DNA of 64,000 bases from Rhodococcus sp. KRD197 (GTDB lineage Bacteria; Actinomycetota; Actinomycetes; Mycobacteriales; Mycobacteriaceae). The DNA is taken from assembly GCF_017168235.1 (NCBI RefSeq), contig NZ_JABFAO010000002.1, positions 124,001 to 188,000 on the forward strand, given 5' to 3'. The first letter of the stretch is position 1. Each line of letters opens with the position of its first letter. Below the pieces are notes generated by a model. It did not search any database. It had not been told where the DNA came from and saw nothing but the letters and a program-made list of their open reading frames with translations. Position numbers and translations under genes: made by a program. Below are positions 4,441 through 9,865 of this stretch, in pieces.

Positions 4441-7086
4441 CTACCCCCGTGCCATGTCCACGAAGCGCGACAGGTGCAGCTGGTGCGCGACGGTGATGGT
4501 CGCGGTCGGACCGTTGCGGTGCTTGCCGAGAATGAGGTCGGCTTCGCCGCCGCGCGGGTCGTCGCGCTCGATGGCGTCGGGGCGGTGCAGCAGGATGACC
4601 ATGTCGGCGTCCTGCTCCAGCGAACCCGACTCACGGAGGTCGGAGACCATCGGCTTCTTGTCGGTTCGCTGCTCGGGACCACGGTTGAGCTGGCAAACCG
4701 CGACGACCGGGCATTCGAGTTCCTTCGCGAGAAGCTTGAGCTGACGCGAGAAGTCGGAGACTTCCTGCTGCCTCGATTCGACCTTCTTGCCCGAGGACAT
4801 CAGCTGAAGGTAGTCCACCACAATCAGTTTCAGGCCGTTGCGCTGTTTAAGACGACGCGCCTTCGCGCGGATCTCCATCATCGTCAGGTTGGGGGAGTCG
4901 TCGACGAACAACGGCGCTTCGCTGATCTCACTCATCCGACGCGCCAGGCGGGTCCAGTCGTCGTCGGTCATCTTTCCCGAACGCATATCGCCGAGTTTGA
5001 TTTTCGCTTCGGCGGACAGCAGACGCATGACGATCTCGGTGCGGCTCATTTCCAGAGAGAAGATGACACTGGGCATGCCGTGCTTGATCGAGCACGACCG
5101 CATGAAGTCCATCGACAAGGTGGAGTTGTGCGTCGGAATCATCGACTCACTGGCGAGGTAGAGGTGCTCGGCGTTGTCCACTTCCACACAACGCACCGGA
5201 ACGGACTCGACCTTACGGACGTCGACGATGAAGCGGGAACCGGACCGGACTGTTGAGTTTGCCGCCCGACGCTCCTTGTGCAACATCTGCTTTCGATGCA
5301 GGCCAAAAACTACTTCGTCGGTGGCGAAGGTCAAAGTGTATGCGGTCGACGACGCCTCGGTGCGTCCCTGGACTCGCTTGGTCGACAAGTGCACGCGATA
5401 GCCGAGACTGACTACGAGTTCGCGAACGTCGGTGACCAAACGCTCGCTAGTGACACTGAATTGCGCAGATCCGCCCGCCGTGACCGTTCCGTCGGTGTCG
5501 AGCAAACCCGCGAGAAGCGCTCGGCGCTGTGCCACTGAGCTGCGCAGGTACTGATTGGGAATATGTTTGTCGCCGAGGACGCCGATCGTACGAAGCCGAG
5601 CCTGAACCGTACCGACCGTATTTCGGCATTCCTGGCATCGGTGCAGCCCTGTTGTACGGGCGCCGCAATCGATACAGGTAGGAGGCTCAACGGGCTCGGA
5701 AATGAAGCGCGCTTTACCCCCACAGGATTGACCGCAGGTACGGACAGTCAACGGGAAAGGTACGAATTCCTTGCCGCACACGATGCACGCCTTCGCATCT
5801 ACGACTTCGGACTGCAATTGAAGTCTGTACCGCAGGGCGGCAGACGGCGACGCCGTCACCCGGAGTCCTTCCCCCTCGATGCGCGTGATGATCTCGGGAT
5901 CAGCGGTCGTGAGCTGTGCGCAAGCAGACGAACCGTCGCCCAGCCATGCCCCCAGGGTGTACGGAGGGACCAACAAGTCGCGCTCGGGCAGTTGCACTGC
6001 CTGCGAGTTGCCGACCGAATGATTGAGTCGCTCATCCTTGGTGTTGCATCGGACCGTCTTCGCGATCTCCTCGGTGGTGCGCACCTCAGCGAACGTCTTC
6101 TGATTGCGCATGCGGTGGTAACTGGCTGCCGCGGTCTGCGCCGACTTCCTCGATGCCCTGGTATCTGTCAGCCACTGATGCTCCGCATCGGCGACGATGA
6201 CTGTGCCATCGGAGAATTCGACCTCGTAGCACGGACGGTCGAGCATCACGTCGGTGGCTGCGACCACGCGTGTGGGAATTCCGTGAGCGTCGATGAGGTG
6301 ATCGCCCACCGCGACCTCACCCATGGTGGTCCATCCATCGGGTGTGGGTAGCGGTGTGTCCAGCGCGAGCGCCTTGCCCACACCAGGCCTGGCCGCCACG
6401 ATGATCATCTGACCGGGGTGCAGGCCGTTGGTGATCTCGTCGAGTTCGGCGAAGCCGGTCGGTACGCCGAGCGAGATGCCGCCGCGGCTGGCGATGGAGT
6501 CGATCTCGTCCATCGTCGGCTGCAACAGCTCTTCGAGGGGCAGGAAGTCCTCCGAGGTGCGCCGCTCGGTGACGTCGTACACCTCGGCCTGTGCTCGGTC
6601 GACCACCTCGGCAACGTCCTGGCCGTCGGAGCCGGCATACCCGAACTGCACGATGCGCGTGCCCGCCTGAACCAGGCGACGCAGAATCGACTTCTCAGCG
6701 ACGATCTCGGCGTAGTAGCCGGCGTTGGCAGCCGTCGGGACGGTCTGCGTGAGCGTGATCAGGTAGGGCGGACCGCCGATGCGCTTGAGCTCACCGCGAC
6801 GATCCAGCTCGGCGGATACCGTCACCGGGTCGGCGGGCTCACCGCGGCTGTAGAGGTCCAGGATCGCGTCGTAGACGTTCTGATGCGCCGGACGGTAGAA
6901 GTCGCCGGGGCGGAGCACCTCGAGGACGTCCGCGATGGCGTCCTTGCTCAGCAGCATGCCCCCGAGAACCGATTGCTCCGCGGCCATGTCCTGTGGAGGT
7001 TGACGGCCGAAGTCTTCACCCGGTGCCTCACTGGGAGGTGATTCGGAGGAATAGCCCGACTGTCCTCGATCGTCCACAACTGCCAC
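4441..7086 (-). CDS. dnaB: Replicative DNA helicase DnaB precursor, intein-containing
   Basis: The precursor has 881 residues. The N-extein (1-238) carries the DnaB N-terminal domain and the first part of the RecA-like domain up to the Walker A lysine in ARPGVGK. Residues 239-654 are an intein. The C-extein (655-881) resumes with Ser-Thr and contains VIFSLEMS, the Walker B region LIVVDYLQLM and the terminal HQLHLSRF. The spliced product of 465 residues has the normal actinobacterial DnaB length and closely resembles the mycobacterial protein. I start at the GTG at 7084-7086, which encodes VAVVDD as in M. tuberculosis and has an AAAGGA site upstream; the longer open frame is an extension. Until the intein leaves, the ATP-binding loop is split, so splicing should control helicase activity. 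Confidence 0.95.
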   Translation of the reverse strand: MAVVDDRGQSGYSSESPPSEAPGEDFGRQPPQDMAAEQSVLGGMLLSKDAIADVLEVLRPGDFYRPAHQNVYDAILDLYSRGEPADPVTVSAELDRRGELKRIGGPPYLITLTQTVPTAANAGYYAEIVAEKSILRRLVQAGTRIVQFGYAGSDGQDVAEVVDRAQAEVYDVTERRTSEDFLPLEELLQPTMDEIDSIASRGGISLGVPTGFAELDEITNGLHPGQMIIVAARPGVGKALALDTPLPTPDGWTTMGEVAVGDHLIDAHGIPTRVVAATDVMLDRPCYEVEFSDGTVIVADAEHQWLTDTRASRKSAQTAAASYHRMRNQKTFAEVRTTEEIAKTVRCNTKDERLNHSVGNSQAVQLPERDLLVPPYTLGAWLGDGSSACAQLTTADPEIITRIEGEGLRVTASPSAALRYRLQLQSEVVDAKACIVCGKEFVPFPLTVRTCGQSCGGKARFISEPVEPPTCIDCGARTTGLHRCQECRNTVGTVQARLRTIGVLGDKHIPNQYLRSSVAQRRALLAGLLDTDGTVTAGGSAQFSVTSERLVTDVRELVVSLGYRVHLSTKRVQGRTEASSTAYTLTFATDEVVFGLHRKQMLHKERRAANSTVRSGSRFIVDVRKVESVPVRCVEVDNAEHLYLASESMIPTHNSTLSMDFMRSCSIKHGMPSVIFSLEMSRTEIVMRLLSAEAKIKLGDMRSGKMTDDDWTRLARRMSEISEAPLFVDDSPNLTMMEIRAKARRLKQRNGLKLIVVDYLQLMSSGKKVESRQQEVSDFSRQLKLLAKELECPVVAVCQLNRGPEQRTDKKPMVSDLRESGSLEQDADMVILLHRPDAIERDDPRGGEADLILGKHRNGPTATITVAHQLHLSRFVDMARG
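5125..6372 (-). other. DnaB intein, class 3 (WCT triad), with LAGLIDADG endonuclease
   Basis: The 416-residue intein sits exactly between Walker A Lys238 and the following Ser. It starts with Ala, not Cys or Ser, and ends PTHN followed by Ser+1. Block B reads AEHQWL (His65, Trp67), block F has VRCVEV (Cys395) and block G has Thr414-His415-Asn416. Trp B:12, Cys F:4 and Thr G:5 are the signature of class 3 inteins, known from the phage Bethlehem DnaB intein. Two LAGLIDADG motifs keep their acidic residues: LGAWLGDGS at about 140-148 and LLAGLLDTDGTV at about 286-297. Between them lie two paired-cysteine zinc modules (Cys196/199/213/217 and Cys233/236/246/249). The element therefore looks active in splicing and probably in homing. 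Confidence 0.9.
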
Positions 7087-7624: not shown

Positions 7625-9865
7625 CTAGCGATCCTCGTCGAGGACCGTGATTTCCTTGGTGCCGATCTGCAGGACACGCGCCGAGGGGATGTCGAAGAAG
7701 AGTCCAGTGATGCGGACCCTGCCCTCCGCCGCGGCGCGACCCACCACGTGGTGCCGGGCGAGCGTCTGCAACTGCACAGCGACGTTGACCATGCCCAGTT
7801 GATCGCCCTCGCCGAAACCGAGTTCGGCGGCCGCTCGGCCGACAGGATGCCCGCTGCGATACGCGTCGAGGCTCGCCAGCCCGTGCTGCAGCCACTCCAC
7901 CACCCGCTCGTTGGCGGCGTTCTCGGGTCCAGCCATCACGGCCTTCATGGCGCCGCATCCCGAGTGACCGCAGACGACGACCGAACTCGTCCCTACGACG
8001 TCAACGCCGTAGGCGAGTGCCGCCTCGACCGAGGTGTCCTGCCCCTGCGCGGGCACAAAGTTGCCCATGTTGCGGACAGTGAAGAGATCGCCCGGCCCAC
8101 TGCTGGTGATCGTGTTGGGCATGACACGGGAGTCGACACAGCACAGGAAGAACGTGTCGGGTTCCTGGAACTCTCGGAGCCCCTCCAGATGCGGTCTGAT
8201 GGCGGCCGCGTGAGTGCGGTGGTACTCGGCGACACCAGCGATGACGGGACGCAGCGCCGGCGGCTGATCCTCCATCTCTACGTCACTTCGGAGCTGCCAT
8301 GCGGACCACGGTGCCAGCGATCGACGTGACTCGGTCAGTCCGCGCTTGGGTGGGCCTTCTGCCGCCGCGGCGAGCGATGCGGATCCGTTCTCTTCGATCT
8401 TTACTGTGCCGCCGCCCAGTTCGTGCTGACGTACCCACTCGTGAAGGTGCTCGTGCACAGCATGATCGAGGAAGTCCACTGCCAGTTCCATGCGAACAGT
8501 CGCGCCGGCGGGCACCGATGCCAGCACACGCGTCAGTCGCGGCAACGACAGGAAGCTCAGCGAGCCCTGCATGCGCACGCGCCAGCCACCATCGACCGTT
8601 TCGTCGGCATGGACATGCGCCCACACCACTCGGCGCAACACGAGGAATATCGCGAGGGCGAGCCCGATGAGCACACCCTCGAGTAGGTTGAGAGCGACGA
8701 CACCGACGACTGTCACGCCGTAAACGGCGATGTCTCCGGTCTTGCGCGCAATCTTGATGTCCGCCAGCTTGATCAGCTGTACACCTATCATGACCAACAA
8801 GCCGGCCAGCGCAGCGAACGGCACCAACTCGACCACCGAGATGAAGAGAACCGAGAAGACCAGGATCCACACGCCGTGCAGAATCGCCGATGCGCGAGAC
8901 TTCGCCCCGGCCTTGACATTGCTGGCGCTGCGCACGATCACACCGGTCACCGGAAGTCCGCCGGCCGCACCGGAAACCATGTTGGCGGCGCCTTGCCCGA
9001 GTAGTTCGCGATCGAAGTTGGTACGCGGACCGGTGTGCATCTTGTCGATGGCTACGGCCGATAGCAGACTCTCCACGCTGGCGATCAACGCGATCGTCAG
9101 CACACCCGTGGCAATTCCCGCCCATTGCCCATCCGGAAGCGCGGGGAGACTGAGCGCCTCGATCAGGTTGCCGGGCAGTTCGATTCGTTCCACGTCGAGG
9201 TCCATCAGAACCGAGATTGCTGTTGCAACCACCACGGCGACGAGAGCGGCCGGGACCTTCGTTGCCATTCCCGGCATACGCGGCCATGCGAGCATCAGAG
9301 CGATCACGATGCCGCCGATGAGAATCGACGGCCACTGGCCGTCGGCGATCGACGTCGGGATGGCAAGGAGGTTCTCCACCGCCGAGCTCTCGGATTCACC
9401 CCCGAGGAGGACGTGAATCTGTTGCAGCGCAATGGTGACACCGATTCCGGCCAGCATCGCATGCACCACCACCGGGGAGATGGCCAGTGCGTGGCGCGCA
9501 ATCTTGCTGAGCCCCAACAGTATCTGCACTGCTCCCGCACCCACGGTAATGAGGCATGTCAGAGCCCAACCGAACTGGTTGACCAACTCCGCGACCACGA
9601 CGGTGAGGCCGGCCGCTGGGCCACTCACCTGCAGCGCCGACCCACCCAGGGCGCCCGCGAGAATGCCTCCGATAACGGCGGCGATGAGGCCCGCCATGAT
9701 CGGCGCGCCCGAGGCGACGGCAATACCGATCGACAGCGGGACGGCGACGAGAAAGACGACCAGCGAGGCCGGAACGTCGTATCTGAGAATGCTTGTCACA
9801 CGGGACCGAGGTCCAGTGCGCTCGGGTGATGTTTCGGAAGAATCCTGTTCGGCTGTCGTTGTCAC
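7625..9865 (-). CDS. SulP anion transporter fused to beta-carbonic anhydrase
   Basis: The protein has 746 residues. Residues about 25-420 form a SulP/SLC26-type membrane domain with 10 or more hydrophobic segments. A short STAS-like region with an MELAVDFLDHAVHEHL stretch follows. The C-terminal part (about 540-746) is a beta-carbonic anhydrase with zinc ligands Cys576 (in CVDSR), His634 and Cys637 (in HSGCGAM), and the Asp578/Arg580 dyad. SulP-carbonic anhydrase fusions such as Rv3273 of M. tuberculosis are thought to couple bicarbonate transport to CO2 hydration. The GTG start has a GGAGGA site seven bases upstream. It lies between rplI and dnaB on the same strand but is separated from rplI by a strong terminator. 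Confidence 0.9.
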   Translation of the reverse strand: MTTTAEQDSSETSPERTGPRSRVTSILRYDVPASLVVFLVAVPLSIGIAVASGAPIMAGLIAAVIGGILAGALGGSALQVSGPAAGLTVVVAELVNQFGWALTCLITVGAGAVQILLGLSKIARHALAISPVVVHAMLAGIGVTIALQQIHVLLGGESESSAVENLLAIPTSIADGQWPSILIGGIVIALMLAWPRMPGMATKVPAALVAVVVATAISVLMDLDVERIELPGNLIEALSLPALPDGQWAGIATGVLTIALIASVESLLSAVAIDKMHTGPRTNFDRELLGQGAANMVSGAAGGLPVTGVIVRSASNVKAGAKSRASAILHGVWILVFSVLFISVVELVPFAALAGLLVMIGVQLIKLADIKIARKTGDIAVYGVTVVGVVALNLLEGVLIGLALAIFLVLRRVVWAHVHADETVDGGWRVRMQGSLSFLSLPRLTRVLASVPAGATVRMELAVDFLDHAVHEHLHEWVRQHELGGGTVKIEENGSASLAAAAEGPPKRGLTESRRSLAPWSAWQLRSDVEMEDQPPALRPVIAGVAEYHRTHAAAIRPHLEGLREFQEPDTFFLCCVDSRVMPNTITSSGPGDLFTVRNMGNFVPAQGQDTSVEAALAYGVDVVGTSSVVVCGHSGCGAMKAVMAGPENAANERVVEWLQHGLASLDAYRSGHPVGRAAAELGFGEGDQLGMVNVAVQLQTLARHHVVGRAAAEGRVRITGLFFDIPSARVLQIGTKEITVLDEDR

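Follow-up and report, generated by a model that had tools for sequence, protein, structure and literature searches.

A class 3 DnaB-b intein with a putative zinc-module endonuclease in Rhodococcus, and a synonymous codon footprint at its insertion site in dnaB

We analysed a 64,000-nucleotide stretch of DNA from Rhodococcus sp. KRD197 (contig NZ_JABFAO010000002.1, positions 124,001 to 188,000; hereafter the window), in which the gene of the replicative helicase, dnaB, is interrupted by an intein. The explanation that we favour, with a probability of roughly 0.7, is that this is a mobile class 3 intein of the DnaB-b type, that its homing endonuclease carries a zinc module and that homing has left a footprint in the dnaB genes of its hosts. 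The footprint consists of unusual synonymous codons in intein-free (empty) alleles; it was the most interesting result of the analysis and was not expected. Class 3 DnaB-b inteins have been studied as redox and zinc sensors. The mobile, endonuclease-bearing form was absent from that picture and is supplied here. An earlier reading of the same DNA from its letters alone (the sequence-only reading) had already proposed a class 3 intein at this place.

The dnaB frame, on the minus strand, starts with a GTG at 7086 (read by eye), ends at 4441, and remains open across the intein, which makes up residues 239 to 654 of the translation. The intein begins with ALALDTPLPTP and ends with PTHN, and the next residue is a serine (Ser655). 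The Walker A motif is split into GVGK and STLSMDF, after Lys238 and before Ser655, exactly where the sequence-only reading had placed the junction; the precursor helicase would not have a complete Walker A motif. One match to the intein was found in the genome of the strain (5.56 Mb in 100 contigs).

The class 3 signature that had been proposed (Ala1, a terminal His-Asn before Ser+1, and W67, C395 and T414) held up in an alignment of 49 full-length inteins, the window's own included. H65, W67, C395, T414, H415 and N416 were each invariant, and alanine stood at position 1 in at least 90% of 47 rows; the window's intein has Ala1 and no Cys, Ser or Thr there. Left out of this alignment were duplicates (L026–L030 and L097), a fragment (L025) and three inteins whose ends were not found (L058, L065 and L090). 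C395 lies within SVPVRCVEVDN and aligned with the class 3 nucleophile of 6bs8 and 6rix, in agreement with its assignment to block F (the sequence-only reading had named a position outside block F as refuting), and W67 and T414 were aligned likewise. The best phmmer matches in the PDB were two class 3 DnaB inteins, M. chimaera DnaB1 (1.2e-43; a variant, 5.8e-43) and M. smegmatis DnaBi1 (4.7e-43), and gp41-1 reached only 0.014. Judged by its sequence, the insert is a real, well-formed class 3 DnaB-b intein at the P-loop site. By homology to solved and tested relatives it is predicted to be self-splicing: C395 would attack the Lys238–Ala1 bond, transfer to Ser655 would follow, and cyclisation of Asn416 would then leave GVGKST restored.

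The region between the two splicing halves is a LAGLIDADG homing endonuclease region with both motifs intact. Its matches to Hom_end and LAGLIDADG_3 were above their Pfam cut-offs, and the acidic residues of both motifs, which had been noticed before, were present in 49 of 49 full-length inteins (D146 in motif 1, D292/D294 in motif 2). A fold model of the intein (predicted local distance difference test, pLDDT, 88; predicted template modelling score, pTM, 0.85) placed LAGLIDADG helices at residues 137–145 and 280–294 and matched PI-SceI over 304–335 residues and 6bs8/6rix over the splicing domain. Such an enzyme would cut intein-free dnaB at the P-loop codons, and the intein would be copied in. 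It is probably still mobile.

Intein matches at E <= 1e-10 were found in 227 of 401 genomes of the family, far more than expected by chance, the site having been checked for part of these matches. The inteins compared here are the strongest matches from this sample; part of each genus was fetched, and the proportions given apply to that set. The genera are coded g1 (Rhodococcus, the genus of the window), g22 (Nocardia), g23 (Rhodococcus), g29 (Mycobacterium), g3, g9 and g30. Thirteen g1 genomes were without a strong match. A dnaB match was obtained in 12 of them, and all 12 read GVGKST, which supplies the empty sites that the sequence-only reading had suggested looking for; the remaining genome (G018) has the start of an intein at a contig end.

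To describe the footprint, we compared 18 occupied and 11 empty dnaB alleles of g1. Seven rows of a divergent g1 sub-clade were left out of the divergence and window scans and included in the counts at codon -1; L066 and L321, in which the insertion site was not found, were excluded from the codon comparison. Synonymous divergence between the two sets was 0.68 per codon at codons +1 to +10, as compared with 0.32 and 0.20 within the sets, and in the other windows divergence between sets was about that within sets. Codon +4 was TCN in 18/18 occupied and AGT in 11/11 empty alleles, a difference that recurred in five of five independent pairs on starred branches of the tree. In nine occupied/empty pairs, differences recurred at +3, +6 and +10 to +12 (and at +9 in seven of the pairs), with 0 to 3 differences over +13 to +36. 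Upstream of the junction, 1 to 6 differences fell within 30 bases, and these were not specific to the intein state.

The same place stood out in other genera. The numbers of occupied and empty alleles were 13 and 27 in g22, 10 and 11 in g23, 6 and 6 in g9, and 18 and 19 in g29. The 10-codon window that best differentiated occupied from empty alleles was the insertion site in all four genera scanned (g1, g22, g23 and g9), narrowly so in g9 (0.071 versus 0.056). With these four combined, the best window was codons -1 to +8, with a score of 9.4, and the next non-overlapping window scored 1.04. The empty alleles of g29 were fetched afterwards as a test, and the best window was again at the site, if narrowly (0.098 versus 0.086). 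The codons themselves differed from genus to genus. AAA at -1 was found in 25 of 27 empty versus 2 of 13 occupied alleles of g22, and in 15 of 19 versus 1 of 18 in g29. In g23, all empty alleles but one (10 of 11) had TTT as codon +7; phenylalanine elsewhere in the compared stretch was TTC in 66 of 66 cases.

A tree of 215 alleles yielded 30 independent occupied/empty pairs on starred branches. On average, three or more AT-ending codons at the site accompanied the empty state in 19.5 of the 30 pairs, and 0.4 pairs went the other way (median p 6e-6). With AAA at -1 as the character, 16.6 pairs agreed and 0.3 disagreed (median p 3e-5). In the same pair test, p stayed at or above 0.09 in each of 31 control windows. 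The threshold of three codons was chosen by us, and a per-window median threshold, used in the control-window test, gave the same value at the site. When 260 windows were ranked by the excess of AT-ending codons in empty alleles, the site came 1st in g1, 2nd in g22, and 1st in g23, g29 and g9. Among occupied alleles it ranked 20, 74 and 104 in g22, g23 and g29.

A synonymous footprint as sharp as this, about 27 bases long and at the insertion site, is expected from homing. Most likely, although we say so with reserve, it reflects mostly cleavage-resistant recoding rather than co-conversion, and both may act. Where the intein is common, cleavable spellings of the site would have been invaded, and the remaining empty alleles, with their unusual codons at -1 to +8, would resist cutting. 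Recoding explains the uncommon codons in empty alleles, the different codons in each genus and the lack of a signal in genera with few or no inteins. For archaeal mcm it has been published that some alleles resist invasion by an intein, and the same paper describes cutting tests on a homologous site that differs mostly by synonymous changes (PMC10643990). Several results weigh against resistance as the explanation. AAA at -1 is not general, being found in only 3 of 12 empty alleles of g1 and 2 of 6 of g9; g30, in which inteins are few, showed no recoding (rank 73 of 260; 10 of its 11 loci were recognised with a wide P-loop pattern after a narrower one had missed them); occupied alleles were also AT-enriched at the site in g1 (rank 2) and g9 (rank 1 of 260); and the correlation between intein prevalence, counted by hand, and recoding over seven genera was not significant (rho 0.64, p 0.12). 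The TCN/AGT difference at codon +4 in g1, which follows the intein state without exception, is easier to explain by co-conversion than by repeated mutation. It is possible, if less probable than recoding, that copying of the intein also brought in some 12 bases of donor sequence on its 3' side and that empty alleles have simply retained an older spelling, and this accounts well for the g1 block. However, it leaves unexplained why AT-rich empty alleles occur mainly in genera exposed to the intein and why the common empty-allele codons differ between genera, and the occupied alleles of g1 were no more uniform at the site than elsewhere.

Unusual codons in empty alleles, weaker in occupied ones, would also be seen if codons -1 to +8 were a DNA or RNA element that is needed by intact dnaB and freed from constraint by the intein. 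We regard this as unlikely, since the 25 genomes of g3, all empty and with no intein seen, showed no bias (ratio 0.85, rank 213 of 260), the ratio in 49 empty alleles from other families was only 1.55 and the common codons vary between genera. (Thirteen of 62 other-family loci had been excluded for want of a recognised P-loop followed by Ser/Thr.) A common regulatory element at the P-loop is thus disfavoured by the intein-free genus g3. The empty alleles are a candidate set of natural resistance variants against a homing drive in an essential gene, and the footprint is a map, drawn from natural genomes, of where the endonuclease may read dnaB. One side observation concerns G025, a genome of g1, where two intein-free dnaB copies (L276 and L280, at G025:C1:518959 and 577994) are separated by about 59 kb and have identical flanks over the stretch shown, by duplication or as an assembly artefact.

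The endonuclease region contains eight cysteines, C196/C199/C213/C217 and C233/C236/C246/C249, which the sequence-only reading had picked out as two possible zinc modules and which lie between the LAGLIDADG motifs. All eight were present in 46 of the 47 full-length dnaB inteins, the window's included; L052 lacks C196. The other two of the 49 full-length inteins (L087 and L089) reside in a gene of the FtsK/SpoIIIE type, have gaps at the module and were left out of the following comparison. Among 95 dnaB inteins, the complete module occurred together with both LAGLIDADG motifs in 46 and with a degenerate motif in none, one or both motifs being degenerate or lost in 32 inteins (Fisher p 3e-13, not corrected for kinship). 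Thus, the zinc modules most likely belong to the endonuclease and not to the splicing domain, most simply as a DNA-binding extension; the two C4 modules would then extend the DNA contacts of the enzyme. HO and I-TevI are homing endonucleases with zinc fingers as accessory DNA-binding parts, at other positions and of other finger types than the modules described here. On the other side, 17 of the 95 inteins keep both motifs with the module incomplete or absent, so that the module may be dispensable for cutting, and the module modelled alone gave a weak structure (pLDDT 70.5) whose best Foldseek match had an E of 0.8, with none below.

Further searches were made for the module. In 67 of 67 parsed genome loci (best 80 of 292; 13 not parsed) there were three CxxC pairs and at least eight cysteines between the motifs; these loci were found with a module-containing query, so that the count is not a frequency. 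They include Rhodococcus, Nocardia, Mycobacterium, Mycolicibacterium, Prescottella and Aldersonia. The DZR_2 profile matched 35 of 35 members at E <= 0.1 (best 1.9e-05), the window's own match scoring 19.1 bits against a cut-off of 27. A profile search of the PDB with the zinc module returned weak matches only, mostly L32 ribbons, at E 0.088 or worse. Out of 41 genomes searched with the module, 14 gave a match, 13 of them in the genus of the window at known dnaB intein places and one (G546) in another family. No report of zinc modules in intein endonucleases, or of synonymous resistance to homing, was found among the literature matches listed. We tentatively put forward a joint claim: in five or more genera of the family, alleles of dnaB would have escaped a homing drive through synonymous changes to the cut site, mostly with different codons in each genus, and the zinc module would supply part of the site reading by the endonuclease and be the first part lost once homing stops.

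The inteins form a graded series of decay, with sizes from 417 to about 135 residues. In g1, 25 of 37 genomes matched the intein, with lengths of 416–417, 379, 333–338, 324 and 258–260. Deletions with different ends were found beside intact close relatives (L004 by L015–L018; L012 and L013 by L020), which points to repeated loss. On a tree of the remaining dnaB sequence of g1, the intein state changed at least 6 times on starred branches and 9 times on the best tree. Pooled over six module-bearing (Zn+) inteins of the genus, whose dS was near saturation, w was 0.070 in the endonuclease core and 0.076 in the zinc module; for four close Zn+ inteins (dS 0.26–0.41) it was 0.071 and 0.044. Less favourable to a maintained enzyme are the values of 0.17 (core) and 0.29 (module) in four inteins of the Zn+ sub-clade L009–L013, and those for the endonuclease region of decayed inteins (0.13–0.14) and of four Zn-less inteins with intact motifs (0.18). 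Since decayed inteins also have a low w, a low w alone is no proof of an active enzyme.

These data bear on two further explanations. The endonuclease of the window could be a relic in an intein that is now inherited vertically, as the many relatives with a decayed or lost endonuclease and the low w that decayed inteins retain might suggest; intact LAGLIDADG motifs in the window's intein, low w for endonuclease and zinc module among close relatives and the patchy presence of the intein on the dnaB tree make this improbable. The sequence-only reading had suggested that redox or metal state could control maturation of the helicase, and the eight cysteines could be the sensor through which such control acts on splicing. 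Redox and metal control as such is already in print for this type of intein: splicing of M. smegmatis DnaBi1 is inhibited by peroxide (PMC6195587), control runs through a disulfide between C118, the catalytic cysteine, and C48, and inhibition by zinc is described as acting through C118/V119/Y128 (PMC7360933). The matching residues in the window's intein are C395, C48, V396 and Y405, with C48 and C395 in 49/49 and Tyr405 in 47/49 full-length inteins. However, DnaBi1 is a mini-intein without an endonuclease and without such modules, and the modules lie inside the endonuclease. The idea that they sense metal or redox state was not retained as the leading explanation, since the complete module occurred in 0 of the 32 inteins whose LAGLIDADG motifs have decayed, and we think it very improbable. 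Class 3 splicing at the DnaB-b site and its sensitivity to redox state and zinc are therefore known for this kind of intein, and the form with an endonuclease and a double zinc module is a new one; in the 2016 survey, the mycobacterial DnaB-b inteins examined there had no endonucleases (PMC5050341).

The closest known systems are DnaBi1 (6BS8, 6OWN) and M. chimaera DnaB1 (6RIX, 6RIY), which have Ala1, the class 3 Trp, Cys and Thr residues and C48 in common with the window's intein. The modelled splicing domain of the latter superposes on 6bs8 with 1.2 A over 125 residues, and its insertion site is the same as that given for M. smegmatis DnaBi1 (PMC6195587). The solved chains are only 139–146 residues long, whereas the window's intein has an endonuclease of about 300 residues with zinc modules. 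PI-SceI, the yeast VMA1 intein, is a class 1 intein that is not known to carry such modules; its endonuclease fold is alike in the model, with 18–20% identity over the aligned part, but the host gene differs. Phage inteins, mostly annotated in the terminase large subunit (TerL), were 31–46% identical over 75–100% of the intein (best 40 of 520 matched records), and mycobacteriophage TerL inteins are described as class 3 (PMC5050341).

Table 1. Features of the dnaB gene and its intein in the window
Feature	Position	Strand	Basis or remark
dnaB with intein, replicative helicase	4441..7086	minus	open frame; DnaB N and C domains, TIGR00665 E 1e-154
dnaB intein, class 3, DnaB-b (DnaBi1-type), 416 aa	5125..6372	minus	
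N-terminal splicing half, intein residues 1–75: Ala1, C48, H65, W67	6148..6372	minus	
C-terminal splicing half, residues 380–416: C395 (nucleophile position), T414, H415, N416	5125..5235	minus	
LAGLIDADG homing endonuclease region, intein residues 76–378	5239..6147	minus	
LAGLIDADG motif 1, GAWLGDG, residues 141–147	5932..5952	minus	alignment
LAGLIDADG motif 2, AGLLDTDG, residues 288–295	5488..5511	minus	alignment
Zinc module 1 (putative), C-x2-C-x13-C-x3-C, C196–C217	5722..5787	minus	conserved cysteines
Zinc module 2 (putative), C-x2-C-x9-C-x2-C, C233–C249	5626..5676	minus	conserved cysteines; DZR_2 match
Insertion-site codon -1 (Lys238)	6373..6375	minus	AAG in the window and in most of the occupied alleles compared; many empty alleles have AAA
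C-extein codons +1 to +8, stretch of synonymous occupied/empty difference	5101..5124	minus	

Related inteins were also seen outside dnaB. The two in the FtsK/SpoIIIE-type gene (L087 and L089, genomes G226 and G242) are 554–558 residues long and lie in a P-loop; they have the block F cysteine, end in THN before a serine and have a longer endonuclease region with no zinc module. For L089, both flanks gave FtsK/SpoIIIE matches, one of which did not reach the cut-off. In another collection, 80 viral loci were scored for CxxC pairs between the motifs: there were none in 63, a single pair in each of 8 and three pairs in L188, and the other 8 loci were not parsed. L188 (1408–4536 of viral contig IMGVR_UViG_3300038406_000196) holds a class 3-like intein inside a different P-loop protein. 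Between its LAGLIDADG motifs, at the position of the dnaB intein modules, there are at least eight cysteines and three CxxC pairs, and L188 is a possible route of exchange with dnaB. Eight viral inteins (L189, L190, L194, L197, L204, L209, L210 and L211) carry a single finger of the C-x-R-G-H...C-x2-C type between the motifs, which suggests that zinc modules of more than one kind can be accommodated at this position. Next to dnaB, at 7625–9865 of the window on the minus strand, a frame of 746 residues resembles, from its translation read by eye, a SulP-type transporter fused to a carbonic anhydrase.

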